A stretch of 64,000 nt of DNA from Ferruginibacter sp. (GTDB lineage Bacteria; Bacteroidota; Bacteroidia; Chitinophagales; Chitinophagaceae), in NCBI GenBank assembly GCA_019638525.1, contig JAHBTO010000002.1, positions 62,001 through 126,000 on the forward strand, in the 5' to 3' direction. Every line of letters starts with the position of its first letter. Position 1 is the stretch's first letter. Shown piece by piece: positions 11,612 through 48,139 of the stretch. The notes below the pieces were generated by a model. It did not search any database, had not been told where the DNA came from, and saw nothing but the letters and a program-made list of their open reading frames with translations. The translations under genes were made by a program, and so were the position numbers.

Positions 11612-11631
11612 TATATTCAACAAAAAAATGT

Positions 11632-11898
11632 ATGAAAACAAAATGGCCGGCAATCTTTTTTACCATTGCATTATATATCGCTGTATTGGCTGCTTTTCTT
11701 ATCACTGATAAACTGCCCAAAAGAGGCGCTAATGATATTTCAACGGGTTTGATGGTGGCAGCCATCAGTTTACCGGTAATTACTTTCTTCTTTTTAAGAA
11801 GTATTTACCTGGCTATAAAAAATGATAACTCTTACTGGATTATAACTGCTGTGCATCTTGCCTGTTTTATCCTATTAGGCATGTATCTTACATTCTAA
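11632..11898 (+). CDS. Small three-helix membrane protein, unknown function
   Basis: An 88-residue protein with three hydrophobic segments (about residues 6-25, 38-60 and 69-88). It follows the formimidoylglutamase-like gene by 20 nt and is probably co-transcribed. I do not recognise the family. A short basic/polar loop (DKLPKRGAND) lies between helices 1 and 2. Confidence 0.65.
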   Translation: MKTKWPAIFFTIALYIAVLAAFLITDKLPKRGANDISTGLMVAAISLPVITFFFLRSIYLAIKNDNSYWIITAVHLACFILLGMYLTF

Positions 11899-11909
11899 AA
11901 TTTTTACTA

Positions 11910-12026
11910 TCAACAGTTTTTAAGAGCCACCCAAATTATTATAAAAACTAAAACCGTACCAAAGCATCCACGCCCTAATTTTTTTGCACCATACCATGCA
12001 ATCAATCCTCTTACTAATTTATTCAT
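11910..12026 (-). CDS. 38-residue small membrane protein
   Basis: On the minus strand ATG 12026 opens a 38-codon frame ending in TGA at 11910-11912. The product has a basic N-terminal half with GAKKLGRGCF, followed by a strongly hydrophobic helix (TVLVFIIIWVAL) and a Lys-Asn-Cys end. This pattern, a GAKKLG-G-C motif running into one transmembrane helix, is one I associate with small proteins repeatedly seen in Chitinophagaceae; I cannot confirm it here. Codon use is like that of the neighbours and the frame fills an otherwise empty gap. It is convergent with the 88-residue gene (11 nt apart). Chance is the main alternative. Confidence 0.55.
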   Translation of the reverse strand: MNKLVRGLIAWYGAKKLGRGCFGTVLVFIIIWVALKNC

Positions 12027-12198
12027 TGTTTATTTTTAATTGAATTTTTAACAATTATAATAATGTTGGGTTGATAAAGCTATAACAATATTAAATTGAT
12101 GCAAACTGCTTTTTTTTGTGATGACAAAAAAAGAGTGAATGAAAGTATTCTTCAATGGATTCAAGTAATTGTTTACAATGCCTGGTACGATGTATTTT

Positions 12199-15100
12199 TT
12201 ATAACGATGCATCTACAAAATACATTTTTAACATGCCTTTATTCTTGGCTTCAATTTCGCCCCTGTATGTACAGTTAACTTTGTTTTTGATAATTTCATA
12301 AACAGAATCAGAAATATTTATTTTTCCTCCTTCACTGTTCTGTTCCATACGTGAAGCTGTATTTACCGTATCGCCCCAAATATCATAAGCAAATTTTAAA
12401 CTGCCTACCACACCTGCCACAACAGGCCCTGTATGTATGCCCACACGAAGCCTGAAATAATCTTTTCCTAACCTGGCCCTTTCATCAAATTTTGCTTTCA
12501 TCCACTGCTGTATTTCTATTGCTGCCCTAACCGTGTTGATGGCATGGTTTTCATTTTCGGTTGGTATACCGCCAACACATAAATAAGCATCACCAATGGT
12601 TTTTATTTTTTCAATTTGATGGCGGGCAATAATTTCATCAAAAGATTTAAAACAGAGATGTAATTCATCAATTATTTCTACCGCACTTAATTTTTCGGCA
12701 CGCTTGGTAAAATCAATAATATCGCAAAACATTACAGTGGCATGCTGGTAATATTTAGGTGTAGCCTTACCCGATGTTTTTAATTCGGCAGCTACTTCCT
12801 TTGGCAATATGTTAAGTAAAAGGTTATCTGTCTTCTCTACTTCCTGCGCAAGTTGTTCGGTACGTTTCTCTACCAGCTTTTCCATGTTATCGTATAAAAT
12901 AGCGTTTTGAAGGCTTACACCCATTTGGCCTGCAAGCATCTTAAGTAAACCAATACGCTCTTCTGTGAATATCGATTTTGAAAGTTCATTAGCCAGGTAT
13001 AACAAAGCTATACAGGTGTTTTGGTTAATGATAGGAACACACATCACAGATTTTTCAGCGGCATCAATTACAGTCTTATCATTGTTATAAGGCGAAGTAT
13101 TCATTGCATTCTCCAGTATAAGTGGTTCTTTTGTACGTATTACATAATTGAAAATACTTGTTGGGATGCCTCCCTTCCTGTTTCTGCCTTTTTCAAAGCC
13201 ATCTGCAAATTTTTCTGAAACCATTTCATAGCCATCATCCTTCTTCACCATAAAACATCCATACCTTGCACCTGCATTCTCCATCGAAAACTGCATCATT
13301 TTATCAACCAGTTTAGTTAAAACAATTTCACTACTTAAAGCTTCTGTGGTTTTAATAATCGTTTTTGCATCAAACTGCTCGGTTGAAAATTCGCCTTTGT
13401 TAACTTCTAAATGCAAATTCCGTTGTTCTTTAAAATCGGTATATTTTAATTCCCAGGTATATATCACACTGTTTATTTCCAAATCGGCAAGTTTCCCTTT
13501 TACAGAATACCAGTATTGCCTGCTACCTTCAATATCCAGGTATTTCATTTTTTGTATCCGCATTAACTCTATCAAAATAGCCGGTAGCTGAAACCCATAA
13601 TTCTCGGCATTTTCTGCAGCCTTTGAATACAATTGATGGTTTACAACCTTGTTTTCAATCGCATTAATTTCGGCATCCATTAAATCTACAATCCAACCTA
13701 CATTCCCTTCATAAACTTTTCTAGCAGCGGTCAATTTTTTCCTGTCTTTTTTTAATTCGTTTTTTATTTTGGTATAATCTGATACACCTTCAAATGCGCT
13801 GTTGATATAAGCTATAACTTTTAATGCTATAAAATAGGGCTGCCAGTAAAGGCTGGCAGTATTGGCAATGTCTTTTTGATTTTGATTAACATGCTTAATA
13901 ACACTGCCATATTGCAAATGAAAAATACCTAAGAAAATTTTCATGCAGTTATATACAAATGAAAACACTGTGTTGTTGGCTTTGCTTTCACGGTTAACCA
14001 ACTGAAGCTCTTCTTCACTGTCAACCAGCTGCACAGGCTGTGTCAGCAACATCTTGCTTAATGCATTTTTTATAACAACAGAAGCGCCATAAGCATTTAA
14101 CTGCCGGTGCCTCACATAAAATTTTTCATAATCATCAAACATGTTCACTGTTTCGGAAAGCTTGGCGCCCCTGAAGTAAACCGAATTGGAATGTGTGTAT
14201 AAATTCCAGGCGGCATATTCCAGGTTACCGGTGTTCAACCCTTTTTCGTAATAGTGCAAACAGTCTTTTTCAAAAGATACCAGCGACTCTTTCCAGTGCA
14301 GGATAAACGTGGTATTTACAAAGCCAGCAGTAGAAACCAATTGTGGTGCATCAAAATGATTAAAAAGTTTCATTGCTTCTTTACCAACGGTATAACCACT
14401 TTCGGGCTTATTTATAACCCCGGCAAGTATAAGCCCATACGATCCATATCCAATAATAGATTCGGGAGTGTTACCATATTTCACACTAAGGTTTACCATT
14501 TTAAAAATCAGCAAAGGGTAGGTGTCTCTTTCCACAAAATAAAATGCTTCAAGTGATGTGTAGATAAGCTGCATTAATAACTTGCCGGCTTCATCTTTCA
14601 TGTCGGCAAACCTTGTTATTTCATTTATTTTTTTATTGGGAAAAGCAATTTGTATTTTTATTGCATTCCAAATAATTTGCCATTTAGATGCTTTACCTTT
14701 AGGAAACCTGAAACCCAATTCATCAAAAGCTTTCCTGGCAATTACAGTGGCTTCGTTCAATTTATTCATGGCAATAGCGCCTTTTAGGTTAGCTACATAA
14801 ACCTGCGAACGATCAATTTTACCAACAGCTTTTGCAAAAGCTTTTTCTTCGTATTCCTGTATTTTAGATTCATTATTGTTAAGATGGGCACACATAATAA
14901 GCAAACAATAATCTAAAACCTGGAGAGAATCTTTTTCTGATATCTTTTCAAAAAGTTCAAGAAAAATAAATGACGATTCGTATGCAGCCGATGAATAAGC
15001 TTTTTGCCCCGCTTGTTGCAGTATTTTAGCAGCCTGGTTACGGTGGCTGCTGTTTTTTAATAAAGCCCCCGATGCTACCAGGTGGTTGGCAGTAATAAAA

Positions 15101-17265
15101 ATATTATCGCCCTCACCGGGATTGGCCATAGAATATTCTGCTGCTTCAAAATGCAGTTCTTCCCTCAACTTGCTTTGAGTACGGTTATATAATGCCTGTT
15201 GAATGCGGTCGTGTGTAAATTTAAAACGCAATTTGGTTTTACTGGCTTCGTAAAAGCCGGGTACAAATTTATATTCCTTATCAAGCGGCTCTATAATATT
15301 TTCTTTTATAGCCTCCCAAAGTAGTGCATGCAGTTTTTGTTGAGGAATTTTTGTTATAAAACTCAATGACGAAAGGCTAAACTCGTGGCCTAAACAGGAA
15401 GCATAAGTGAGAACCTCTAAGTTTTGGGGCGAAATATTATTGATCTTATCAATAATTACGGTAGCTATGTTTTCGGTAACAACCAGTTCCCTTATTCCGG
15501 CTATTTCCCATTTCCAGGTACAATCGGTAACCTGTAACCAAATGAGTTTTTTGGCATAGAGGTAATCGAGTAATTGAATGATAAAAAAAGGATTTCCCTG
15601 TGTTTTGGCAAATATCAGGTCGGCAAGGGTATTTGTTTCTTCTTTACTGCATAAAAAAGTATCTGCAAGCAAATCATTGGTATCATTTATTGTTAATGGT
15701 TTTATTTCAATCGAATCAACAATTAAATTTGTATCGGCCTGTGTTTCATTATGATTTAATTCAATTTCAGTTAATGTTCTTATAAAAGGATGTGTACTAT
15801 CGGTTTCATTATGCCTGTATGCTAATACTAAAAAAAGTTTTTTTAGTTTAACATCTCCCGAGATACTTCGCAGCAATTCAACAGATGCTTCATCGGCCCA
15901 TTGCCAATCATCTACAAAAAATAAAACCGGTTTTACTATCTTAAGAATGCTTTTAATAAACAGCGAAACAGCAAATTGAATCCTGCTTTGTTGTTCTTTT
16001 GGATTTAACTGCGGCTGCGGTGTTATTTGTGTAAATAAAGTTTTCCACCTGGGTGCAATAGCAACAATATCAGCTTCCAGGCCCTGCATATTTTTATCTA
16101 AAAATTTACGGCACAGCGAAATATTTTCTTCTGTTTCGGTAAATAATAATTCGGCCAGTTGATTAAAAGCCTGCGACCATCCATAGTAAGGTATATTACG
16201 ATGTAAAGAATCGAATTTACCACTAATAAAAACTCCTTTATCAGCAGTGAGGGGTTTTGCTACTTCCTGTACAAGTTTTGTTTTTCCCAAACCGCTTAGT
16301 CCCTTTAATGCTAACAATATTTTTTTACCGGCAACGGCTTCTTCATACAACGAATAAATCTTTTCGGTTTCCTGTTTTCGGCCAAAAAGTTTTTGTGATA
16401 CATTCAGGCGTAATGGTAAATCGGCTTTACCTAATTCAAACATAGCTACTGTACCGGTGCTTATCCATTCTTTTTGGCAATGTTCCAGGTCAATTTTTAA
16501 TCCACTTAAAGATTGGTACCTGTCTTCGGCATTTTTAGCCATTAACTTTTCTATGATAGCAGACAGGGCTTGTGGAATTTTTGCATCAATTGTATGTAAT
16601 GCAGGTGGCAATAAAGCAATATGACAATGTATAAGTTCTAATGTGTCGTTACTGTCAAATGGTTTTCGCCCCGACAAAATCTCGTAAAAAATTACACCTA
16701 GCGAATAAAAATCAGAACGGTAGTCAATTACACGGTTCATACGGCCTGTTTGCTCGGGAGAAATATAATGTAATGCACCCTCAATTACCGATGCGCCTTT
16801 ATAGGCCGATTGTTGGTATTGCTGGTGTGTGCCCGATTCCAGGTCAATAATATATATTTTGTTTTCGGCAAGGTTGGTGATAATGTTTTGAGGGTTTAGA
16901 TCATTGTGTATGATTTGCCTTGCATGCAAGTTTTGTAATTCATCAATGATTTTAAAACAGGTATTAAAAAAATAAACTACTCCCTGGTGATTATTTTCAA
17001 GTTCTTCTTTTAAAGGCCTTCCGGGAAAATAGGGGCGTGTAAAAGCAGGAATCTTTTCTATTTCGGTTAATGAAACAAGCGAATCATCTCCATTAAGTTC
17101 CAAAGTAAGATTGTACTCATTATATAGGCCCGCCCTGGTGGCTGTTTTTCCTTTTTTTATGATGATATCTTTTCCGCTTGCAATATTCCTTGCCCGGTAA
17201 ATTGAAGATTTATTACCATCATAAATGGTTTCAATCACATCATATTGTTTATCATTTTGTATCAT
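12199..17265 (-). CDS. Multidomain Ser/Thr kinase - ATPase - GAF - adenylate cyclase
   Basis: A 1688-residue soluble signalling protein. In order: a protein-kinase domain (about 8-270) with IIHNDLNPQNI as catalytic loop, DLE where DFG is usual, and YISPEQTGRMNR in the activation segment; an AAA/predicted-ATPase domain (about 290-600) with Walker A GLSGLGKTK and Walker B LFFVDDWQWAD; a long helical, TPR-like region (about 620-1250); a GAF domain (about 1310-1450); a coiled linker; and a class III nucleotide cyclase (about 1500-1688). In the cyclase both metal aspartates are present (MFCDIIDFT, and Asp in its loop), and the purine-selecting residues look like Lys (KIKTIGDAY) and Asp (YDIWGDTVN), which predicts cAMP. 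This architecture resembles large cyanobacterial and myxobacterial sensor kinases, but with a cyclase in place of a histidine kinase. It probably senses a small molecule through GAF or TPR. The carotenoid oxygenase gene lies 40 nt upstream on the same strand. Confidence 0.9.
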   Translation of the reverse strand: MIQNDKQYDVIETIYDGNKSSIYRARNIASGKDIIIKKGKTATRAGLYNEYNLTLELNGDDSLVSLTEIEKIPAFTRPYFPGRPLKEELENNHQGVVYFFNTCFKIIDELQNLHARQIIHNDLNPQNIITNLAENKIYIIDLESGTHQQYQQSAYKGASVIEGALHYISPEQTGRMNRVIDYRSDFYSLGVIFYEILSGRKPFDSNDTLELIHCHIALLPPALHTIDAKIPQALSAIIEKLMAKNAEDRYQSLSGLKIDLEHCQKEWISTGTVAMFELGKADLPLRLNVSQKLFGRKQETEKIYSLYEEAVAGKKILLALKGLSGLGKTKLVQEVAKPLTADKGVFISGKFDSLHRNIPYYGWSQAFNQLAELLFTETEENISLCRKFLDKNMQGLEADIVAIAPRWKTLFTQITPQPQLNPKEQQSRIQFAVSLFIKSILKIVKPVLFFVDDWQWADEASVELLRSISGDVKLKKLFLVLAYRHNETDSTHPFIRTLTEIELNHNETQADTNLIVDSIEIKPLTINDTNDLLADTFLCSKEETNTLADLIFAKTQGNPFFIIQLLDYLYAKKLIWLQVTDCTWKWEIAGIRELVVTENIATVIIDKINNISPQNLEVLTYASCLGHEFSLSSLSFITKIPQQKLHALLWEAIKENIIEPLDKEYKFVPGFYEASKTKLRFKFTHDRIQQALYNRTQSKLREELHFEAAEYSMANPGEGDNIFITANHLVASGALLKNSSHRNQAAKILQQAGQKAYSSAAYESSFIFLELFEKISEKDSLQVLDYCLLIMCAHLNNNESKIQEYEEKAFAKAVGKIDRSQVYVANLKGAIAMNKLNEATVIARKAFDELGFRFPKGKASKWQIIWNAIKIQIAFPNKKINEITRFADMKDEAGKLLMQLIYTSLEAFYFVERDTYPLLIFKMVNLSVKYGNTPESIIGYGSYGLILAGVINKPESGYTVGKEAMKLFNHFDAPQLVSTAGFVNTTFILHWKESLVSFEKDCLHYYEKGLNTGNLEYAAWNLYTHSNSVYFRGAKLSETVNMFDDYEKFYVRHRQLNAYGASVVIKNALSKMLLTQPVQLVDSEEELQLVNRESKANNTVFSFVYNCMKIFLGIFHLQYGSVIKHVNQNQKDIANTASLYWQPYFIALKVIAYINSAFEGVSDYTKIKNELKKDRKKLTAARKVYEGNVGWIVDLMDAEINAIENKVVNHQLYSKAAENAENYGFQLPAILIELMRIQKMKYLDIEGSRQYWYSVKGKLADLEINSVIYTWELKYTDFKEQRNLHLEVNKGEFSTEQFDAKTIIKTTEALSSEIVLTKLVDKMMQFSMENAGARYGCFMVKKDDGYEMVSEKFADGFEKGRNRKGGIPTSIFNYVIRTKEPLILENAMNTSPYNNDKTVIDAAEKSVMCVPIINQNTCIALLYLANELSKSIFTEERIGLLKMLAGQMGVSLQNAILYDNMEKLVEKRTEQLAQEVEKTDNLLLNILPKEVAAELKTSGKATPKYYQHATVMFCDIIDFTKRAEKLSAVEIIDELHLCFKSFDEIIARHQIEKIKTIGDAYLCVGGIPTENENHAINTVRAAIEIQQWMKAKFDERARLGKDYFRLRVGIHTGPVVAGVVGSLKFAYDIWGDTVNTASRMEQNSEGGKINISDSVYEIIKNKVNCTYRGEIEAKNKGMLKMYFVDASL

Positions 17266-37213: not shown

Positions 37214-37948
37214 TTAGTCCTTTCCCCTGTCCAGGTTCCAGATCCATAACAATTGCTGTAAGTGCCGGATCGTTTGCCCATTAGATGAAATAGTGCCTGT
37301 TATTATGGTCCCTTTATAACTACAATCCGGCAGGTGTATAACGGGGTCTTCCGAAAAAGCTGACAGCTGATTAATAGTAAGTGTTCCAAACATTTTTGGA
37401 GGAGGAAAGGGGTCACCATTTTCTTTATAATGGCCATTCATTACGCCTGCATTTATTACCATATTAAACGTTCCAGACGAGCGATTGCTAAGAAAAGTAT
37501 CTTCATAACACTTTACCAATGAATCTGATTTTTCTTTAAGCACCGATATTCCCGAATTTGGATGTCCTGCAATATTAATACCTGTAATAGTTGGGTTGCC
37601 GCCTGTTGCAGTCGTTGAAAAAACAAATGAATTAGCACCTGAAGTAAAAGTAATGGTTAAGGCCTGGTTTTGTGCAACTGTCTGGGCAGAAGTATATGTT
37701 GTTGCAACGCCGTCAATTTTTAAAACTGCGTTTAATGTATTGTCGTTATTTACATTTATTTCTAAATTCCCTGATGAGCCAGTGAAAACTCCTTTGTAGA
37801 CTCCGTAGTTACTGTTATTAAAAGCTACTTTAGCAATTGGTGTATTTGAAAAGCTGCTGCCCGGAGGGTTGTTATCATCGCTTTTTTAGCAGGCACTAAA
37901 CATCATAACGGTGAGTGGCAATATGAGTAATAAAAATTTCTGTTTCAT
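37214..37948 (-). pseudogene. Lipoprotein gene with a stop codon directly after the lipobox Cys
   Basis: Minus-strand ATG 37948 opens a typical lipoprotein signal (MKQKFLLLILPLTVMMFSAC). The next codon is TAA (plus 37886-37888); the same frame then continues with KSDDNNPPGSS, a normal start of a mature Bacteroidota lipoprotein, and stays open for about 220 codons to the stop at 37214. The mature part looks like a small beta-sandwich lipoprotein (repeated T/S/G/N strands); no family recognised. The frame was checked codon by codon. Without the stop it would be 244 residues. One base change restores it, so a sequencing error or a very recent knock-out are both possible. The next start in frame (GTG 37543) would remove the signal. 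Confidence 0.8.
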
Positions 37949-38033
37949 ATTATATGTTTTAAATGGTGAAATATATAATCTTAATAAAATTGATGGTTGA
38001 TAATGTAAAAATGAAAATTGCTGATGGGGAAAA

Positions 38034-38054
38034 CAATTCCACTTAAGGGGAGAG
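38034..38054. promoter_or_regulatory. Imperfect CCCC-N4-GGGG palindrome before the lipoprotein gene
   Basis: CAATTCCAC-TTAA-GGGGAGAG, related to the three better sites at 38299, 43861 and 48119, with one mismatch in the left arm. It lies about 90 nt upstream of the lipoprotein start; about 32 nt after it, on the minus strand, comes TACATTAT, a -7-like element shared with the solo LuxR gene's promoter. Confidence 0.4.
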
Positions 38055-38055
38055 G

Positions 38056-38253
38056 TTACAGGAACCAGAACTTTATCAACGCCTCAATCTTATTGCTTAC
38101 TTTAAGTTTGCGATAAATATTCTTGAGATGTTTCTTCACCGTTTCGGCAGTTATGCCAAGTTCAGTAGCAATGCTGCGATACGACATGCCCTTGGCCAAA
38201 AGGCCCAATACCTCTTTCTCCCTGGGGGTTACTTTTTTAGCAGTAATTTTCAT
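38056..38253 (-). CDS. Free-standing LuxR-type DNA-binding domain
   Basis: A 65-residue protein starting at ATG 38253 (MKITAKK); the frame is open further up but only to a TTG. It is nothing but a LuxR/GerE helix-turn-helix: TPREKEVLGLLAKGMSYRSI, AETVKKHLKNIYRKL. There is no receiver or sensor domain. Its recognition helix and the following residues (ETVKKHLKNIY, KL, NKIEAL) are nearly identical to those of the response regulator at 43969-44592, so the two probably bind the same DNA. Single-domain LuxR proteins can act as constitutive activators or as competitors. Its own promoter carries the CCCC-ATTTA-GGGG palindrome. Confidence 0.85.
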   Translation of the reverse strand: MKITAKKVTPREKEVLGLLAKGMSYRSIATELGITAETVKKHLKNIYRKLKVSNKIEALIKFWFL

Positions 38254-38298
38254 ACTGATGATGTTAAATGTAAAAATGAAAAAGCTGTACGGATATTT

Positions 38299-38320
38299 CA
38301 ATCCCCATTTAGGGGTATTG
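38299..38320. promoter_or_regulatory. CCCC-N5-GGGG palindrome before the solo LuxR gene
   Basis: CAATCCCC-ATTTA-GGGGTATTG. On the minus strand it is followed after about 31 nt by TACATTTA, a -7-like element, and after a further short leader by the start codon at 38253. Position just upstream of -33 suits an activator. Confidence 0.55.
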
Positions 38321-38382
38321 CACAAAAAAATATTTTAAGTACCTGTTACAAAAAAATTGATACCGGCAACTGCCTCCAAATA

Positions 38383-38409
38383 AAAAACCCCGCAACAGAA
38401 GTTGCGGGG
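38383..38409 (-). terminator. Rho-independent terminator of the large repeat-protein gene
   Basis: A 9-bp perfect stem (CCCCGCAAC at 38388-38396 with 38401-38409), 4-nt loop AGAA, and on the minus strand a T run (A run at plus 38382-38387). It lies 28 nt after the stop codon. Confidence 0.9.
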
Positions 38410-38436
38410 GTAAAACTAACGCTGATATGAGAAGAA

Positions 38437-41400
38437 CTAATTCTGCCTTATTATTTTTCCGGTTACAGAATAATTTCCCACAATCACCCTGTATAAAAGG
38501 ATTGCTTCACGGATATTATTAAAGGTAATTTTGTTACTGTTTCCTTTAGTTAACATCATGTTTGTTGCTTTCAGCAATTTGCCCTCGGCAGTTATTAGTT
38601 GTACGGTTGCCATTCCGCTTACCGGTGAGTTAACTTGTAATGTAAAGTCTCCACGGTGAGGGTTGGGGTATGCATTTGAACGCAGCGTTTCAGTTACCTG
38701 TATTGTTTTAGCAGCAACTCCTTTTTCATTCAACCCGTTTTTGCCTGTTTCGGCAAATGTTGTGGGTGGATTTACCGAAAGTTGGTAACAGGTAAATGAC
38801 AATGTATTTGTGCTGATGCCGATGGAGTAACTTGTATTGGCTGCCAACACATATTCTTTGCTGGTTGCAGTTGTATTTACAGGCACCAATGCAGGCGTGT
38901 TACCGGCAGTTACATACAAGTCGAAATTATAATTTACTGAAGGATGTGTAACAGATATGATATAGTTACCGGCGCCATCTGTTGTAAACTTAAACCAATC
39001 AGCCAGGTCGGTTGCAACTGCCAATCGTGCTGCAATTATTTCAGTAACATTAATAGTTTTTGCATGGCTCTTATTGTTATTGCCTTCGTACTGGTCGGTA
39101 CCATTATCAACAACAGTGATGGTTTTTGTAGTGGTACATCCTCTTGCATCTTTAGTGTAAACATTATAAGTACCGCCGCTTACATTTGCAAACAATCCCG
39201 ATGACTGGTAGCTAATATCATCTAAACTATATTCATAAGGTGCAGTACCACCCGATGCAATTGCAGTAATGGTACCTAAACTTATACAACCATTTACATT
39301 TGTTTTTGTAAGTGTTAATTTTAGGTTTGCAGCAGGTTGAGAAACATTGATGATTTTTGATACGATACATCCATTGTCGTTATCCGTTACCTTCAAGGTA
39401 TAGTTTGCTGCCTTTAAATTACTGATGTCTTCGGCAGTTTCATTAAATCCTCCACCCGAAGTCCACAGGTAAGTAAAGCCTAATCCACTGCCGCCCGTAA
39501 TGGTTGCATCAATAGCGCCGTTTGCTCCGCCACGGCAAGATACTGGTGTTACCACTTCAGTTATATTTATCTGTGGATAAGATTCAAGGTTTACCTCAAG
39601 GTTTGCAGTACATCCCTTAGTATCGGTTACGGTTAAATTATATATTCCTGCATAAAGGTTATTTGGATCCTGTGCATTGGAAGTATAACCACCGGGACCG
39701 GTCCAGTTATAAGTTTTAGCGCCTGAACCTCCGCTAACAGTAATGAATATACGGCCGTTGTTTGATGTACCGCATGGCCGTATAGTATTATCAAGCACCA
39801 CAGTAAGCAATGCAGGTTGTGTAACTGTCCTGGTCACAAAATCAGAGCAACCATTGGCATCTTTAACACCTACTACATAAGTACCTGCCAGCAGGTTGCT
39901 GAACACATTACTTGTTTGCCATGCACCGGCGTTAATATTATAAGTATGTGGCGCCACTCCGCCAGCAGTATTAACGGTAATGCTTCCGGTGGCTGTGCCA
40001 TAGCAGCTTACCGGTATTATGGTTGTTGTTGGGTTGATAGTAGAACCGCCGGTTATGGTATAAGCTCCATTAACGGTGCAGCCATTTGCATCGGTAACAA
40101 CTACTGAATATGCGCCAGCCGGAACATTGCTGATGGTTTGTGTAGTTGCCCCGTTATTCCACAAATAAGTATAAGGGGTTGTGCCGCCTGCGGCAGTTGC
40201 TGTGGCGCTTCCATTGCACGAAGCCGTTGTGCCGCTCATGGTAACCGTTAGTAATGCCGGTTCGGTAACATAATATCCATCATTTACTATACAACCGTTG
40301 GCATCAGTAACCACTACAGTATAAGCGCCTGCGGCTAATGCGCTGATGGTAGCGGTATTAGCGCCATTGCTCCATGCATAAGTATAAGGAGTTGTTCCGC
40401 CACTGACATTGGCAACAATGCTTCCATTGTTTGCTCCAAAGCAACTGATGTTAGTACCTGCAAGGTTAATGGCAAGCGCTGCTGCCGGCTCTGTGAGTGT
40501 AACATCAAGCGATGCTGTAGATCCATTTGCATCGGTAAGCGATAAATGATAAGTGCCTGCCGACAAGTTACTGATATCTTCTGTAGCAGCATTGTAGCCT
40601 GCATCGCCGGTTTTTGTCCAGGCAAATGTATATGGTGCAAGGCCGCCACTAACAGTAACATCAATTGCGCCTGTATTTTGTCCGTAACAATAAATATTTG
40701 TTGCCTGTGTAAGCGTAACTGTTACAGTTGTTCCATTGCAGGAGCCGGGTACGGGCTGAAAGCCGATGGCAGGATCATTGTCTGTACCGTTTATAAGCCA
40801 TGGACTGTAATTAACAGTTGTGGGTGTAATTTTCTGCAATACATTTTGCGCAGCAGCAGCGCCATACCAGTTGCAGTTTGCATTTATTGTTTGGCTCGTT
40901 GTTCCATTATTGATGGAAATGGAGTCGCCGGTGAAGCTGTTGTTATTCATATTTGCAAGGATACCGTTTGCAAGTCCGCCGAACTGACCATTCATCGCAT
41001 GAAAAAATACAACTGATTGTTTAAAACCACTTATTTTATTTGCATTGATGTTAAGCACTGCATTTGCCGGTAATGAAATAGTGGATGATCCGCTATTGGA
41101 AGAGATAAGAATTGCAGTTCCTCCGGGAAAATTTGGCCCTCCGGCTCCCGGGGAAAGATTAACACCTGTAAAACTAACCTCATTGCTGTCAATGGTGATC
41201 ACATTAAACACTCCTGAGGGCCTGATGCCAAATGGAGATGAATTTGTCCAAAGACTATAATCCCCGGTAAAACTTAGTGTATTCCTTTTAACAATGGCTT
41301 CGGCATTCAATACCGATGCCGATGTAGAAAGGATTATCATAGATCCGTTTGACAGACCTGTGCCGTCAATACTTATTGTATTATCCTGGATGGTCATCTT

Positions 41401-43680
41401 ATTCACCCCGCTTGGATCTGTTCCACCGCTCCTTTGGCTAAGTATGGCGTTTCCCCTTGAATTCTGGATAAGATTGTTCCTGACCATAAAAGTTGCCGGT
41501 TCCGGAATATTACTGTAAAGACTGAATCCTGTATTACAATTGTACACTTTATTATTTTCTATCACTGTATTACCAATACGTGATGTTGTAATGGCCAGGT
41601 AAGGTGCATTGAAATGATTACCGGAGATGGTAAGATTGTCCACTTTTACAGTTGACCCGAAATTCATTCCCGTTTGTTTCCTGTCGAAACTGGCACTGCT
41701 ATTAACAAATGAATTACCCGATACAAAAACACCGTTAATTCCATTGAGCAAAATAGACGTACTGTTGTTGAAACCGTTATTTTTCTCGAACCGGTTATTA
41801 CTAATATTGTAATTAAAGGTTGACAATGGTGTTATATTCTTTCCGGTAATACCTATTGGAATTGTATAGGAATTAATAATGAACCTGTTGTAAGAAATTT
41901 CGATTTGACTAAAACCTACCGTATTGTTGATTTGCTGAAATTGTGCTGTTGCAGCCATGTTGAACGTAAATCCTTTGAAATTGATATTGCTGGCGGCAAT
42001 GTTATAGGCTCCACCAGAAATCACTGCTTCGGCATTGCGGCCTGCATTGAGTTGCAAAGGATCTGTGGCATCATTGGGCGAAATCTGATAATTGGGCCCT
42101 AAAACCGTAATTGATTTACTGATATTACCAGATGAAATATGATTGCCTGCATCCACAAAAATAGTATCTCCGGCCTGTGCTTTGTCGAAAGCAGCACCAA
42201 TAGTAGCCAATGGAAAAGCGGCCGAACCATTATTATTATCATTGCCCACAGCAAGTGTATATATATCGCCTGCCTGGCTATTATCATTAACATAAAATGT
42301 TTTTGGCCCTGCCAATACACTCTCGTCGTTGTTGTATTTATAAACTTCAAAGCCATTAGTTCCATTGTTGGCCGCAAAATAAACGGGGTTACCGGGAGTA
42401 AAAGTATTAGGAACAGAATTTCCGGATGGGTTGATATCTGCAACCATCACCGTATTTAAAGCTGTTCCGTCTGTTATCCAAAGCTCTCCGCCATTTGTAC
42501 CGTTATTAGAGGAAAAAATAATAGTATTTTCTGAAACGGTTAAACCGGCGGGGCCACTGCCATTGCTTCCCGGGTTTATGTCTTTTACCATGGATGCGGC
42601 AGATCCGTCAAACTTCCAAAGTTCACTTCCGTTGGCAGGCGTAAAAGCATTAAAATAAAGGGTATTATTCAATGCAGTCAAAAAAACCGGATTTGAGCTG
42701 CCGGATCCGGGTACAATTTCAGCGGCCAACAGGGTACCAGCCGCTGTGCCATCCGTTTTCCATAATTCTTTACCATTCACACCATCGTTTGCTGCAAAGT
42801 ATAAGGTGGAACCAATGTTTGCAAAAGCAGGGTAGAGGTTTGTGCTATATACACTGTTGAACTCGTACATCGGAACGGTTCCTGCGGCTGTTCCATCGGT
42901 AACAAATAATACCGAATTGTTGTTGGCAGTTTTCCCTGTCATAAAACAAACCTTGCTTCCTGCACTCATAAAATAACCCATGCCGAAATATTCGGTGCCG
43001 AGGTCTCTTAGCAGTATTGTACCTGCGGCGGTACCATCACTGCGCCAGATGGCATCATAACCGGTGCCCCATTGGTCGTACAATAGAAAATACAACATCC
43101 CATTGATGACTTTCATCCAAGCGCCTTCGGGTGCCGTTCCTGCATAACCGCTGAATTCATATACAAGCGAAGTACCTGCCACTGTACCGTCGGTTCTTCT
43201 TAACTGCAGTTTGTTGTTGTTAGCAACAACCGTATAATATACATAACCATTCATTGGTTCTAATTGATAAACAGGGCCACCACCTGCAGTTGCCGTGGGG
43301 TTGAATTGTTCCAGCGGGATGGTGCCTGCCTGTGTGCCATCGCTAACCCATATTACACTATTATTGGGCGCAAAGTTGTCGCCGGTAAAGACAACCTTAT
43401 CGCCCAGTTTGGCCAGTATGGTTGCTTTGCTGTTATTATAACCGGGGTAGGTAAGGTCGAGCTTTATGGTGCCCGCTGCCGTACCATCTGTCCTGAACAG
43501 GCTGGGGTAAACGTCTGCATCATCATCATCTTCATTAAAGAATGTGTAGTTGGTTGTTTTAATTATCTGTTGGATGGTTCCGCTATTATTTCCCGGGAAA
43601 ACATCTTTTAGCATCAATGGATTTTGTGCATCTACAACCATTGTGCTTATTAACAATAGTAAACTGATTAGCTTTTTCAT
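38437..43680 (-). CDS. Giant T9SS-exported surface protein with ELK, beta-helix and SprB repeats
   Basis: A 1747-residue exported protein. It starts with a signal peptide (1-19, MVVDAQ). Residues about 20-470 hold eight ELK/hyalin-like repeats around the motif (L)W-x-(T/S)DGT-x-AGT. Residues about 480-990 are a right-handed parallel beta-helix with Asn-rich turns (right-handed repeats such as NNTISIDG and GNHFNAP). Residues about 1010-1540 are seven SprB-type repeats, each with C-x-G, GG-x-x-PYTY-W and AGTY-x-V-x-V-DANGC. A PPC-like domain follows (about 1560-1650), then a type A T9SS sorting domain with AYPNPHRGDFTLQV and a final YSVTGKIIRQN. The protein should be exported by T9SS and fixed on the cell surface. 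Function may be adhesion or motility; no enzyme is visible. The gene lies downstream of the sensor/regulator pair. Confidence 0.93.
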   Translation of the reverse strand: MKKLISLLLLISTMVVDAQNPLMLKDVFPGNNSGTIQQIIKTTNYTFFNEDDDDADVYPSLFRTDGTAAGTIKLDLTYPGYNNSKATILAKLGDKVVFTGDNFAPNNSVIWVSDGTQAGTIPLEQFNPTATAGGGPVYQLEPMNGYVYYTVVANNNKLQLRRTDGTVAGTSLVYEFSGYAGTAPEGAWMKVINGMLYFLLYDQWGTGYDAIWRSDGTAAGTILLRDLGTEYFGMGYFMSAGSKVCFMTGKTANNNSVLFVTDGTAAGTVPMYEFNSVYSTNLYPAFANIGSTLYFAANDGVNGKELWKTDGTAAGTLLAAEIVPGSGSSNPVFLTALNNTLYFNAFTPANGSELWKFDGSAASMVKDINPGSNGSGPAGLTVSENTIIFSSNNGTNGGELWITDGTALNTVMVADINPSGNSVPNTFTPGNPVYFAANNGTNGFEVYKYNNDESVLAGPKTFYVNDNSQAGDIYTLAVGNDNNNGSAAFPLATIGAAFDKAQAGDTIFVDAGNHISSGNISKSITVLGPNYQISPNDATDPLQLNAGRNAEAVISGGAYNIAASNINFKGFTFNMAATAQFQQINNTVGFSQIEISYNRFIINSYTIPIGITGKNITPLSTFNYNISNNRFEKNNGFNNSTSILLNGINGVFVSGNSFVNSSASFDRKQTGMNFGSTVKVDNLTISGNHFNAPYLAITTSRIGNTVIENNKVYNCNTGFSLYSNIPEPATFMVRNNLIQNSRGNAILSQRSGGTDPSGVNKMTIQDNTISIDGTGLSNGSMIILSTSASVLNAEAIVKRNTLSFTGDYSLWTNSSPFGIRPSGVFNVITIDSNEVSFTGVNLSPGAGGPNFPGGTAILISSNSGSSTISLPANAVLNINANKISGFKQSVVFFHAMNGQFGGLANGILANMNNNSFTGDSISINNGTTSQTINANCNWYGAAAAQNVLQKITPTTVNYSPWLINGTDNDPAIGFQPVPGSCNGTTVTVTLTQATNIYCYGQNTGAIDVTVSGGLAPYTFAWTKTGDAGYNAATEDISNLSAGTYHLSLTDANGSTASLDVTLTEPAAALAINLAGTNISCFGANNGSIVANVSGGTTPYTYAWSNGANTATISALAAGAYTVVVTDANGCIVNDGYYVTEPALLTVTMSGTTASCNGSATATAAGGTTPYTYLWNNGATTQTISNVPAGAYSVVVTDANGCTVNGAYTITGGSTINPTTTIIPVSCYGTATGSITVNTAGGVAPHTYNINAGAWQTSNVFSNLLAGTYVVGVKDANGCSDFVTRTVTQPALLTVVLDNTIRPCGTSNNGRIFITVSGGSGAKTYNWTGPGGYTSNAQDPNNLYAGIYNLTVTDTKGCTANLEVNLESYPQINITEVVTPVSCRGGANGAIDATITGGSGLGFTYLWTSGGGFNETAEDISNLKAANYTLKVTDNDNGCIVSKIINVSQPAANLKLTLTKTNVNGCISLGTITAIASGGTAPYEYSLDDISYQSSGLFANVSGGTYNVYTKDARGCTTTKTITVVDNGTDQYEGNNNKSHAKTINVTEIIAARLAVATDLADWFKFTTDGAGNYIISVTHPSVNYNFDLYVTAGNTPALVPVNTTATSKEYVLAANTSYSIGISTNTLSFTCYQLSVNPPTTFAETGKNGLNEKGVAAKTIQVTETLRSNAYPNPHRGDFTLQVNSPVSGMATVQLITAEGKLLKATNMMLTKGNSNKITFNNIREAILLYRVIVGNYSVTGKIIRQN

Positions 43681-43860
43681 TTTTTAATGATTTAGGTTTT
43701 GTTTGATTGTTTTGAAAAATCAGTTAACAAGAAGTAAGGATTTTTTACAAGAAACGGTAAGCGTTATGGATTTTCTATGAGGATTACACGGATTATAAAA
43801 CAGTGAAATCACCGTTTTTATCCATTCATGCATAAAATTGTTACAAACCGGGTTTTAAAT

Positions 43861-43883
43861 CAATTCCCCTTTCGGGGAATATT
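43861..43883. promoter_or_regulatory. CCCC-N4-GGGG palindrome upstream of the giant protein gene
   Basis: CAATTCCCC-TTTC-GGGGAATATT, about 180 nt upstream of the giant gene's start codon and 86 nt downstream of the response regulator stop. Arms match the other two perfect sites. A clear -7 element was not found at the same distance as in the others, so the promoter position is uncertain. Confidence 0.5.
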
Positions 43884-43968
43884 TTTTTTACTGCCGGTTT
43901 TTTAAATGGAGATTACCTGTTTTATAGGTGCAGGGGGTAGTATTTATTCAACATCAAAAAAAATATGA

Positions 43969-44592
43969 CTACAGCAGTTTGTATTTATTAAGCGCTTCAA
44001 TTTTGTTTTGAACATGCAATTTTTGATAAATATTTTTAAGGTGCTTTTTTACCGTTTCGTGTGTAACGCCCAGTTTTTCTGCAATTTCCTTGTATAGCAA
44101 ACCCTTTGCTAACAACTCAAGCACTTCTTTTTCACGGGTACTCAGCAATAAGTTTTGGGCTTGCAATGCCGGTTTCTGAAAACTGCTTATAACCTTTCGG
44201 GCAATGAAGGGGCTCATGGGCGAGCCACCGTTATACAAATTCCTAATGGCAATACATATCTCAGATGCTGTAACGGGTTCTTTTAGTATATAACCCGATG
44301 CACCGCATTTAAGCGCTTCATAAATGGTATCATTATCATCATGGATACTGCAAACCATAAACTGTGTTTGTGTTAAAATGTTTTTCATCCGTACAATCAA
44401 TTCGGTTCCCTTCATGCCGGGCAGGCTGATATCGGCAATAACAATATCGGGCGCATTAACCGGAAGATCAGCAATTGCTTTTTCGGCACTTGAATAAGAG
44501 CCGGCTAGAAAAAAATCGTTTTCGCTGCTAATGATGGCTTCAAGCCCGTTGCGGAATTGCTCGTTGTCTTCTACAATTGATATGGTTATCAT
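43969..44592 (-). CDS. NarL/FixJ-type response regulator
   Basis: A 207-residue response regulator. The receiver (1-120) has Glu8/Asp9 and phosphorylation site Asp54 in VIADISLPGM; the C-terminal LuxR domain (about 145-207) carries STREKEVLELLAKGL and HETVKKHLKNIYQKL. It overlaps the sensor-kinase gene by 4 nt and must be its partner. The DNA-binding domain is almost the same as that of the solo LuxR protein downstream. Likely target: the CCCC-N4-GGGG palindromes in this cluster. Confidence 0.93.
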   Translation of the reverse strand: MITISIVEDNEQFRNGLEAIISSENDFFLAGSYSSAEKAIADLPVNAPDIVIADISLPGMKGTELIVRMKNILTQTQFMVCSIHDDNDTIYEALKCGASGYILKEPVTASEICIAIRNLYNGGSPMSPFIARKVISSFQKPALQAQNLLLSTREKEVLELLAKGLLYKEIAEKLGVTHETVKKHLKNIYQKLHVQNKIEALNKYKLL

Positions 44593-47500
44593 GTAACTGG
44601 TTTTAACGGTATTTCAAATGTCAGCGTAAGCCCATTGCTGTTTTTAATATCAAGTTTGCCCTGTAGTATGCTTATGCGTTGTTTCATGTTCTTCATCCCG
44701 TTGCCGGTGCCGTTTAATTCTTCCGAGTGTATGCCTTTGCAATTATCCGAAATAGTCAACAGCAACTGTTCCTTATTGCAACGCATTTCAATCACCACCT
44801 TATCGGCGCCGGAGTGTTTTATTATATTGTGAACCGCCTCTTTTACTATTAAGAAAATATTCCGCCTGGTTTCGCCATTTATTTTTATTTGGGGTATTGA
44901 ATGTGGGGCGATGATTTGTAACTGGCAGGGAAAATGCTCTAACCATGCCCTTGCCTGTGTTTGAAGATAAGAAAGCAGGCCGGCCAATGTATCATTATCG
45001 GTATTCAGGCTCCAGATTACTTCTTTCATTTTTGCAGATATCTCACCTAGCGACTGGTAAATTTTTTCTACGTCTTCCACCGTTTGTTCATCTTTTACTT
45101 TTTTCTTCATCAGTTCGGTCAGCAGCCTTATCCCTGAAAGCCCAGCGCCTATATCGTCATGCATCTCGGAAGAAATACGCTGCCGCTCATATTGCACAGC
45201 CAGTTGTTTTTCCAATGCAGTTTTTTGTTTGCGCAGCTGGTAGTTGTAAATGAACAAGGCAATAAAAAATAATGTTACCAAACCGGCAATTACCATCAAT
45301 GTTTTAAACCACCAGCTTTGCCACCATGCAGGAAGTATGGTGAAATGATATGCTGTAGGTTTGCTCCATACCTGTGATGGGCCAATGTACATCACCTCAA
45401 ATGTATAATCGCCATATCTTAAATTACGGTAATCGGCAATAGTAGATGATGAAGGACTGCTCCAGGTTTCATTAAGGCCCTTCATACGGTAACTGTATTT
45501 AATTTTATCGGGCGACAGCCAGTTGGTTGCGTAAAAATGAAAACGAAGAAAATCCTGGTCATAAGTAAGGGTTAAGTTTTGCGGGCAATTGCTGAAAGGC
45601 ATCAAAGTACCAAACATGATTTTTTTCTTCATGCTATCGGGCAGGTTACGAAAATCAAAATAACGCTCATTAATCTCAATATAATCCAGCTTAGCCTGGC
45701 TTTGTTGATTATTAGATATGGTATTATCCAGGTTTTTGATGAGGATATTTTTACCGGTACTCCACCACATGAAATTGTTTTTATCAATACAGGCGCCATT
45801 AAAATTAAAGTCGAGGGCCTTTAGGCCATCCTGCAAACCATAGTTATAAATTACAAGCCGTTTGTCAGCCCATAAAAAACAATTCAACCCATTATCGGTG
45901 CCTGCCCAAATGCGCCCCAATGAATCTTTAATGAGCGACCATACATTGTTATTTGTTAATCCCTGTTTTTCGGAGAAGTAAGTAAATTGTTTTCCATCAA
46001 ACCTGCACACCCCGGCGCCCTGTGTACCCAGCCAAATGTTTCCATCTTTATCTTCCAGTATGGATGTGATTTTTATACTGAATAATCCTTCTTTCTCAGA
46101 GTAAACTGTACTATTTGCTCCATCGTATTTAATGATACCGCCGCCTTTAGTACAAAACCAAAGGTTTTTCCTGCTGTCTTCCATCATTGCAAAAATTGTA
46201 TTGGCAAGCAGTCCTTGTTCTTCGGTAAAATGAGTAATTGTTTTACCGCTTATACAGGTGATGCCATTTTCCTGGGTACCCAACCAAAGGTTGCCGCCTT
46301 TATCCTGCAATATTGAAAATATTGACATACTTGATAAGCCTTCTTTTACTGTATAATGCCACACATCATTTCCATCAATTTTGAACAGGCCATTACTTGT
46401 TGTACCCATCCAAATATTCCCCTGCCTGTCGGCATATAAAGAGCGCTGCCCGTTATAATCAAAAAAATTGTCCCAGGCATAATATTCAAAACCCGTATTA
46501 AATCCGGCTGCGGCAGTAGCATCATATTTTCCAATACCTGCCCCTTCGGTACCAAACCAGGTATTGCCATTATTATCATTAATGATGGGCCGCACCCTGT
46601 TATTGGTGATAACTTCGTTGTGGGGGAGTGTGCTGAAGCTTTCAGTATTTAATTTATTTACACCTCCGCCATCAGTGGCAAACCAAATGTTTCCGGCTTT
46701 GTCCTGTATTATTTGCCTTACTTTATTATTAGTGATTCCCTCCGCCAGGGTATAGTGTGTAAAATTTTTTCCATCAAATTTATTAAGTCCACCCAGGGAG
46801 GTGCCCAGCCAAATATTACCACTCCTGTCTTCCATCATGCTCCAAATATGATTACTGGAGATTCCATTCTCTGTATCATACGAAGTAAAGGATTTACCAT
46901 CGTACATAGTAAGCCCCCTTTTTTTGGTAATGCCATAACCATTGCTTATCCAGATATTGTGTTTACTGTCTTGCAATAAAGCAAAAACATAATTATTGGG
47001 TAATCCGTCTTTTTGTGTAAAATGTGTAAATACTTCTCCATCAAACAATGCAAGCCCTGTACTAGTGCCAATCCATAATTTTCCTTTGTAATCAACAATA
47101 CAGGATTTGACATCGTTTCCGGGCATCCCTTCTTTTGTAGTATAGAAAGTAAATTTTTTCCCGTCGTATTTCACAAGCCCATGCATAGAGCCAATCCAAA
47201 TATTTCCTCTTTTGTCTTCGGTTAACGCAAAAATTGATTTATCCTTCAAGCCCGGGAACAGGTCGATATTATTAAAATTCTTTCCGTCAAAAACCGAAAT
47301 GCCTTCAGTGGTGGCAATCCACAATTCGCCTTTACTGCTTTCAATAATCCTGTTAATTGTGTTACTGATAAGCCCGTTTTTTGTAGTATAATGTATAAAC
47401 TCTACAGCATTGTATTTTGTTAGCCCTGTTCCATCCATCCCAAACCAAATATCACCCCTGCTATCTTCTAACATGGCATAAACAAATGAAAAACTTAATC

Positions 47501-48059
47501 CCTGTTGCACATCAAGGTATTGAACATTGGCAATTGCTTCATCCTTGTATCGCATTGGCATAGCACGTACGGGCTGTGGTTGGCTGAAAGGCATTTTTTT
47601 AAAAACAGCCTTAACAGGTACGCCGGTTGGGATATTGCTTTTTACAATGTCCATATCCTGTTGCGGAAGGCCATTGCCTGTTTTTATTTTTATCAATTTT
47701 GCCGTATCAATAACTGTTGTAAATGGGGTGCCTGATACCGGGAAAACATTGCCCTTTATTATTTGCCTTGCCTTTAATGCAGGCAGTAAAATTTTACTGG
47801 GAGAATTATTTTGGGGCAGTTTTACAATCCCCTTAAAAGGCAGTTGAACACCGGTGCGTATGCTAATACCTTTTGAATTGACAAGCGGTACAATACTGTC
47901 GCCGTTGATTGGGTTAATTGTATAACCATTAATCGTATCGAGCTTTACCGTAAGCGGCGCCTGGTATAACAAAGGTAAATCCTGTGTTTGCTGTTTTTTA
48001 TTAAGCCTGCAAGCCTGTACAAGGATAAGCAGCAATAAGTATTTGCAATATTTGTACAT
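44589..48059 (-). CDS. Two-component propeller-type sensor histidine kinase
   Basis: A 1156-residue membrane sensor. The start is taken at ATG 48059 because it gives a lipoprotein-like or cleavable signal (MYKYCKYLLLLILVQAC); the frame is open 23 codons further. The periplasmic part has about 14 Reg_prop repeats (D-x-x-G-x-(I/L)W-(I/F)G-T-x-x-G) forming two propellers, then a Y_Y_Y domain (TYDQDFLRFHF, YSYRMKGLNETW). One transmembrane helix (about 920-945) leads to a HisKA_3 kinase with His967 in SSEMHDDIGAG and an HATPase with NIIKHSGA and GNGMKNMKQRI. It differs from hybrid two-component sensors in having the regulator as a separate gene. The ligand is unknown; in Bacteroidetes similar sensors detect carbohydrate oligomers or surface conditions. 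A CCCC-N4-GGGG palindrome precedes the gene. Confidence 0.92.
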   Translation of the reverse strand: MYKYCKYLLLLILVQACRLNKKQQTQDLPLLYQAPLTVKLDTINGYTINPINGDSIVPLVNSKGISIRTGVQLPFKGIVKLPQNNSPSKILLPALKARQIIKGNVFPVSGTPFTTVIDTAKLIKIKTGNGLPQQDMDIVKSNIPTGVPVKAVFKKMPFSQPQPVRAMPMRYKDEAIANVQYLDVQQGLSFSFVYAMLEDSRGDIWFGMDGTGLTKYNAVEFIHYTTKNGLISNTINRIIESSKGELWIATTEGISVFDGKNFNNIDLFPGLKDKSIFALTEDKRGNIWIGSMHGLVKYDGKKFTFYTTKEGMPGNDVKSCIVDYKGKLWIGTSTGLALFDGEVFTHFTQKDGLPNNYVFALLQDSKHNIWISNGYGITKKRGLTMYDGKSFTSYDTENGISSNHIWSMMEDRSGNIWLGTSLGGLNKFDGKNFTHYTLAEGITNNKVRQIIQDKAGNIWFATDGGGVNKLNTESFSTLPHNEVITNNRVRPIINDNNGNTWFGTEGAGIGKYDATAAAGFNTGFEYYAWDNFFDYNGQRSLYADRQGNIWMGTTSNGLFKIDGNDVWHYTVKEGLSSMSIFSILQDKGGNLWLGTQENGITCISGKTITHFTEEQGLLANTIFAMMEDSRKNLWFCTKGGGIIKYDGANSTVYSEKEGLFSIKITSILEDKDGNIWLGTQGAGVCRFDGKQFTYFSEKQGLTNNNVWSLIKDSLGRIWAGTDNGLNCFLWADKRLVIYNYGLQDGLKALDFNFNGACIDKNNFMWWSTGKNILIKNLDNTISNNQQSQAKLDYIEINERYFDFRNLPDSMKKKIMFGTLMPFSNCPQNLTLTYDQDFLRFHFYATNWLSPDKIKYSYRMKGLNETWSSPSSSTIADYRNLRYGDYTFEVMYIGPSQVWSKPTAYHFTILPAWWQSWWFKTLMVIAGLVTLFFIALFIYNYQLRKQKTALEKQLAVQYERQRISSEMHDDIGAGLSGIRLLTELMKKKVKDEQTVEDVEKIYQSLGEISAKMKEVIWSLNTDNDTLAGLLSYLQTQARAWLEHFPCQLQIIAPHSIPQIKINGETRRNIFLIVKEAVHNIIKHSGADKVVIEMRCNKEQLLLTISDNCKGIHSEELNGTGNGMKNMKQRISILQGKLDIKNSNGLTLTFEIPLKPVT

Positions 48060-48118
48060 CCGTAGGTTGGCTTTGAGGATAAATATAAAAACAATCTTCT
48101 TTTTTTCAAGCAACCGGG

Positions 48119-48139
48119 CATTCCCCAAAAGGGGTATTG
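48119..48139. promoter_or_regulatory. CCCC-N4-GGGG palindrome before the sensor kinase gene
   Basis: CATTCCCC-AAAA-GGGGTATTG. On the minus strand TTG, 19 nt, then TATATTTA, a -7-like element, lie between it and the start codon at 48059. The site is upstream of the -33, the place for an activator. Confidence 0.55.

Follow-up and report, generated by a model that had tools for sequence, protein, structure and literature searches.

A palindromic site as the probable operator of a NarL-type regulator and its local surface-protein regulon in Ferruginibacter

The DNA analysed here (the window) is a 64,000-nt stretch of a Ferruginibacter genome. It contains a cluster that is encoded entirely on the minus strand, and all features described below lie on that strand. 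The sensor histidine kinase gene (44589–48059) encodes 1156 residues from its ATG; the protein has a lipobox-like N-terminus, followed by a Reg_prop propeller and Y_Y_Y, HisKA_3 (PF07730, 38.4 bits) and HATPase_c (PF02518, 47.2 bits) domains. A mechanically assigned TTG start of this ORF falls within the putative operator; the ATG at 48059 is the likelier start, and the orthologue at locus L073 of a relative begins with MYKYCKY. The kinases of the window, L073, L074, L075, L076, L079, L081, L082 and L226 all have lipobox-like starts (for example LVQAC, IFSAC and IGGC), which lie ahead of a propeller and a transmembrane kinase; such an arrangement would be consistent with a lipid anchor at the sensor end. 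The HisKA_3 kinase gene overlaps, at its stop codon, the gene of a 207-residue response regulator (43969–44592). The regulator is of NarL/FixJ type, it contains one receiver (PF00072, 72.6 bits) and then one GerE helix-turn-helix (HTH) domain (PF00196, 61.1 bits); no equivalog cut-off was reached in an NCBIfam search with this protein.

The next gene (38437–43680) encodes a giant surface protein of 1747 residues, with ELWxxDGT repeats, SprB repeats and a type IX secretion (T9SS) sorting tail. Its C-terminal sorting domain scores above the cut-offs of both PF18962 (31.1, cut-off 27) and TIGR04183 (42.9, cut-off 23), and its middle region is common to the proteins of the relatives. A probable intrinsic terminator, CCCCGCAAC..GTTGCGGGGTTTTTT, was read from the sequence at 38384–38410 and is also present in L098. 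It is followed by one 65-residue gene (38056–38253), which encodes a predicted stand-alone LuxR/GerE-type DNA-binding protein without receiver, and by a lipoprotein pseudogene (37214–37948). Compared to the intact 245-residue copy in L098, which also has an intact operator, the lipoprotein ORF of the window carries one TAA (37888–37886) immediately past the lipobox Cys and one 2-nt deletion near 37269, close to the 3′ end.

Palindromic sites were analysed on the coding strand of the cluster. The sequence-only reading had placed four of them, at 38034 (imperfect), 38299, 43861 and 48119, upstream of the lipoprotein, solo LuxR, T9SS protein and kinase genes, respectively; we recovered the same set as three exact sites and one degenerate site. 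The three full-consensus matches are CAATACCCCTTTTGGGGAATGC upstream of the kinase operon (48118–48139), which was also compared with the relatives, ATATTCCCCGAAAGGGGAATTG upstream of the giant T9SS protein (43861–43882) and CAATACCCCTAAATGGGGATTG upstream of the 65-residue gene (38299–38320). The degenerate site upstream of the lipoprotein, CCTCTCCCCTTAAGTGGAATTG (38034–38055), starts directly after the stop codon of the 65-residue gene; with four mismatches from the consensus, it is insufficient as a stand-alone match. The L098 orthologue of this site is a clean CCATTCCCCGAAAGGGGAATTG. The lipoprotein operator of the window has lost its symmetry, while the adjoining sequence aligns closely with L098 throughout. 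The lipoprotein gene has decayed jointly with its operator, which is expected if the latter serves this gene.

Exact CCCC-N4/5-GGGG occurs three times in the 64,000 nt of the window, at 38303–38315, 43866–43877 and 48123–48134, which bears out the earlier statement that the window has no such site outside the cluster; widening the spacer to CCCC-N3..6-GGGG returned the same three matches (38303, 43866 and 48123). The bare core is too weak as a signal by itself: shuffled windows contain 1.56 cores on average, and 27 of 100 shuffles reach three or more. With the flanks included (CAATnCCCCn4GGGGnATTG, ≤3 mismatches), the window has exactly three sites; the shuffles contain 0.24 on average, and none of the 100 reach three. 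Since the bare core is expected about 1.6 times in a window of this size, it is the flanks, not the core, that carry the significance.

The confinement of the site to the cluster held up in the whole source genome, which is 3.40 Mb in 33 contigs. The bare core is found at 18 distinct places (19 per-strand entries, with one overlapping pair in a C-run), many of them within genes. In contrast to a scatter of unrelated sites, three of the four places that match CAATnCCCCn4GGGGnATTG with ≤2 mismatches in the 3.40 Mb are those of the cluster, and the fourth lies within a 784-residue ORF. By chance, three of four sites would fall within a particular 9.84-kb stretch with a probability of about 1e-7, and within any stretch of such size with one of 1e-4. 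A second scan combined one half site with the promoter element described below (GGGGnATTG-N20-CATTTTTA, ≤1 mismatch). Besides the three cluster targets, it returned two places that both lack the left arm; one of them lies within an ORF, and the second overlaps the 5′ part of an ORF.

We also searched CCCC-N4-GGGG-AATTG in 396 genomes of the family and obtained 48 matches, against about 8 for a reversed control. Eight of the family genomes have the full-length regulator at an identity of at least 69%. Six of these eight hold 12 exact sites, and all 12 lie beside the regulator; the about 390 other genomes hold 36 scattered sites. Leaving aside the genome of the window, five regulator-bearing genomes have 11 sites where 0.46 are expected (P about 3e-12), and the presence/absence table of site and regulator among the family genomes gives P 2e-5. 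The promoter element was found in register at none of the 27 scattered sites (of 36) that were inspected; 15 of the 27 are within ORFs, and the others are 3′-end elements or lie at other intergenic places. When one mismatch is allowed, the family genomes show many more core-like elements, often CCCCTTTAGGGGG or CCCCGAAGGGGG. Such elements are dispersed in genomes G226, G028, G327 and G266, with some near gene 3′ ends, and look like a separate class. Since CCCCTTTAGGGG and CCCCGAAGGGGG elements recur in a number of relatives, in part at the 3′ ends of genes, the sites of the cluster might be put down to chance or to a dispersed CCCC-GGGG repeat that abounds in such genomes. However, the recurring elements lack either the full ATTG flank or a promoter element in register, and the exact sites are restricted to the regulator cluster in six of six family genomes that hold both; we regard this explanation as highly improbable.

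Orthologous loci were collected from Chitinophagaceae-type genomes by a scan with the regulator. The response regulators of the relatives are 59–92% identical to that of the window. The closest one (92%) belongs to L073 and L098, which are two contigs of one Ferruginibacter MAG; L074, L075, L079, L081, L082, L083, L084 and L226 represent the cluster in other genomes, and the L225 cluster reads as L075. A site lies beside the regulator in nine loci or locus pairs (L073/L098, L074, L075, L079, L081, L082, L083, L084 and L226), upstream of one T9SS/SprB-type or other large surface protein, a lipoprotein or a 65-residue gene. The palindrome was thus retained together with the cluster, as had been asked of relatives by the sequence-only reading: it is present wherever the regulator adjoins an SprB/beta-helix T9SS protein, a lipoprotein or a 65-residue gene. 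The same reading had one operator shared by the kinase, T9SS, LuxR and lipoprotein genes. This stands for the target genes, the sites of which are kept, but only in some lineages for the kinase, whose site is found in the window, L073 and L083 only. In L073 the operator and promoter block of the kinase is conserved, whereas the DNA upstream of the block is not.

No site was found near the regulator homologues of L077, L078, L080 and L085, whose neighbouring genes are different ones, and the more distant regulators (L086–L096) have no common CCCC-GGGG site. The regulators of L077, L078 and L080 carry the same recognition helix (A/PETVKKHLKNIYQKL), yet no site is nearby. The assumption that the same recognition helix means the same site is weakened by these three loci, and the helix taken by itself is no predictor of the site. 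In the single MAG from which both L080 and L084 derive, two kinase-regulator pairs may be arranged in tandem across a contig break; operators are present at the second pair only. L081 contains, at 10626–15600, two tandem units of operator, 65-residue gene, operator and T9SS protein; judged from its layout, this tandem is a cassette that was duplicated along with its surface protein.

Promoter-like sequences follow the sites at a fixed distance. As proposed before, −7-like elements lie 31–35 nt past the right arm at three of the sites: TACATTTA and TACATTAT start 31 nt after GGGG, and TATATTTA starts 35 nt after it. The T9SS site was omitted from that list, and it has the variant CAATTTTAT in the same register (43832–43840), with its TA 26 nt after the operator; this register is common to the relatives. 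In the aligned operator-promoter units, the element CATTTTTAC is located at 38270–38278 for the 65-residue gene and at 38005–38013 for the lipoprotein gene. The alignment was first made with 22 sites, 19 of which are target sites, and two L226 sites were added afterwards. Counted from the end of the 22-nt site, TTTTTA (≤1 mismatch) starts at offset 22 in 18 of the 19 target sites, while every other offset has four or fewer. With L226 included, 20 of 21 sites are followed by a CATTTTTAC-like element whose TA occupies offsets 26–27, exactly 26 nt from the 22-nt site; the 21 aligned sites share descent, so they are not independent draws. CATTTTTAC rises above the low-information sequence on either side, and the 16 bases between the site and the element drift. 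Drift of the intervening bases, while the element stays, speaks for selection on the promoter element.

The fixed register also bears on whether the palindrome acts as RNA, either as a terminator of the upstream gene, in the form of a hairpin with a GNRA cap, or as a 5′-UTR element of the downstream gene. For the T9SS-type sites, folding does give CCCC-GAAA-GGGG hairpins (z about −2.1 to −2.3), the A-rich centre is oriented alike at the target sites, and with their GAAA centre and T-rich flank some copies resemble hairpins or terminators; the L081 site right after the regulator stop codon is terminator-like, with a T tail. However, a downstream promoter element at one exact register would place the palindrome outside the transcript of that promoter. 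GNRA does not fit the centres GAAC, TAAAT, TTTT and GAAT, the kinase site of the window shows no unusual fold (z −0.18), and the T9SS gene of the window has its separate terminator-like hairpin ahead of the 65-residue gene. In addition, the ATTG flank is among the most conserved positions, although it lies partly outside the stem. The exact register, the variety of centres and the conservation of the ATTG flank favour DNA binding, and a role as RNA appears improbable, with a dual terminator/operator role possible at some copies.

The −7 box of Bacteroidota, TAnnTTTG, spans −12 to −5 (PMC9723704), and promoters of the phylum have TTTG near −33 (PMC7366714). If the conserved TA belongs to the −7 box, the operator would occupy about −60 to −39, with its centre at −49.5. 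No TTTG was found at the −33 place in the aligned target promoters, as expected for activator-dependent promoters. TA is fixed in register, but the target sites do not keep the TTTG half of TAnnTTTG; the core element of the targets may therefore be non-standard, rather than an ordinary −7 box. In the probable kinase promoter (48080–48110), CTTG (48110–48107) is followed after 19 nt by TATATTTA (48087–48080), which agrees with the sigma-A spacing of TTTG and TAnnTTTG. In the window, a promoter of the form CTTG-N19-TATATTTA points to autoregulation of the kinase on top of a basal expression. Repression is also compatible with an operator placed directly ahead of the core promoter; in this case the regulon would be silent as long as the regulator is active, or the 65-residue protein would be the repressor; a receiver-less paralogue could act as a competitor. 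Nevertheless, an operator that lies upstream of the core promoter and not over it, together with the missing −33 TTTG at the targets, fits activation, and we consider repression unlikely.

The 65-residue protein has one single GerE domain that is complete through the last (dimer) helix, and no receiver or ligand domain. Its length is exactly 65 residues in the window, L098, L074, L075, L081 (twice) and L226; the gene of this type in L084 has no ATG at the expected start and is probably TTG-started. Among solved structures, the HTH is nearest to NarL output domains; GerE (1fse) is matched at 1.1e-6, and residues 5–60 align to the NarL and GerE chains. In NCBIfam, PedR matched at 35.3 bits, under its cut-off of 120 bits. 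The recognition helices of the regulator (HETVKKHLKNIYQKL) and the 65-residue protein (AETVKKHLKNIYRKL) are nearly alike, in agreement with the sequence-only reading; across the loci, the helix of the 65-residue protein is that of the regulator or a slight change of it (KMHLK for KKHLK).

The stop codon of the 65-residue gene abuts the next operator in several loci, and so does the regulator stop codon in L075, L079, L081 and L084. Within a locus, the units of HTH end plus operator share 66–69% DNA identity with each other. The arrangement fits an origin of the 65-residue gene by duplication of the 3′-terminal part of the regulator gene with its operator; the tree, in which the 65-residue proteins group on one side with modest support (73/83), neither proves nor dates this duplication. 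A recent origin from the own regulator of each host was set aside; one old origin is allowed by this modestly supported grouping, which does not establish it.

The 65-residue protein retains a full HTH and always occurs with the operator; it could be the main reader of a real operator, with the regulator acting elsewhere. However, no 65-residue gene is present within the 17–20 kb of L079 and L083, though both have operators, and L083 also carries a site before its kinase. The regulator, which is present in all of the loci, is thus the constant partner of the operator, and a main role of the 65-residue protein in reading it seems quite improbable. Isolated output domains of NarL/FixJ type are often active without phosphorylation, and for this reason the 65-residue protein may act in feed-forward, with a competitor role nearly as likely. 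We found nothing relevant in the literature on this operator or on HTH-only LuxR proteins in Bacteroidota.

Other NarL-type systems of the source genome have no palindrome of this sequence, except for one pair at C12:604k. This pair (L016, G000:C12:596000-612000, at 7951 and 8701) belongs to a different NarL-type two-component system with its own CCCC-N5-GGGG sites, CCCCTTTTTGGGG just before the regulator and CCCCATTTTGGGG in front of a T9SS protein encoded further downstream. Its sites have standard TAnnTTTG-like boxes at a shorter spacing, and its regulator has a different recognition helix (FETIRSYIKKIY). One perfect palindrome with 11-bp arms, ATACCTCAACA-AAAAA-TGTTGAGGTAT, is located at 7935–7961 of L064 (G000:C30), upstream of another Reg_prop kinase operon, and is probably that kinase system's own operator.

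Taken together, the comparison makes it likely that the palindrome is the operator of the NarL-type regulator of the cluster and activates a local surface-protein regulon; that the site is bound and activates is inferred, as is what the 65-residue protein does. The operator copies are confined to the cluster and were retained with it in the relatives. Uniqueness, register and co-conservation support the one-operator regulon of the sequence-only reading, but of its two surface proteins one is intact and the lipoprotein is dead. In our model, the envelope-facing propeller kinase would sense a signal and phosphorylate the regulator. A regulator dimer would then bind CAATnCCCC-n4-GGGGnATTG with its centre at about −49 to −50, ending just upstream of the −33 region, and would recruit RNA polymerase to promoters that have the CATTTTTAC core element but no −33 TTTG. 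The predicted local targets are the giant T9SS surface protein, the lipoprotein and the 65-residue LuxR-HTH gene; the operator copy before the kinase operon, in the lineage of the window and two others, would provide autoregulation. The 65-residue protein, an output domain without receiver, would be produced under the same operator and probably binds it independently of phosphorylation; holding the switch on by feed-forward is more likely than damping it.

Like NarL, UhpA, VraR and DesR, the system combines a HisKA_3 kinase, a regulator of receiver plus GerE-HTH and a palindromic site. Different from these NarL/FixJ systems, its targets directly adjoin the system, and it reaches no NCBIfam equivalog cut-off; to our knowledge, its operator sequence is unlike those of NarL, UhpA, VraR and DesR. 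GerE of Bacillus is a stand-alone LuxR-HTH regulator of 74 residues. The 65-residue protein resembles GerE, and PedR by a weak match, in having a single GerE domain without receiver or ligand domain; unlike them, it is exactly 65 residues in length, a paralogue of the output domain of the neighbouring regulator, and carries the operator of the regulon. The Bacteroides hybrid two-component systems share the Reg_prop/Y_Y_Y sensor type. Those beside polysaccharide loci control neighbouring genes (PMC11253607); in the present cluster, kinase and regulator are separate, and the targets are adhesin-like T9SS proteins instead of sugar-uptake genes. PorXY-SigP is a two-component system tied to T9SS in Bacteroidota (PMC4800418). 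Its cascade controls the secretion machine via an ECF sigma factor, whereas here a regulator of another family would control adjoining cargo genes.

We know of few operators of Bacteroidota two-component systems. Comparative genomics yields here a predicted one to base-pair detail, with the promoter register, that is directly testable. The cluster is also a clean case in which a receiver-less regulator copy would be built into the circuit of the same regulator, and in which a regulatory unit was duplicated and lost along with the surface protein under its control. We tentatively raise the possibility that the cassette of operator, 65-residue reader, operator and surface protein arose from the 3′-terminal part of the regulator gene and multiplies with new surface proteins, as in the two tandem units of L081, and that its phosphorylation-independent reader latches the regulon on. 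If so, each new adhesin would come pre-wired to the regulon.
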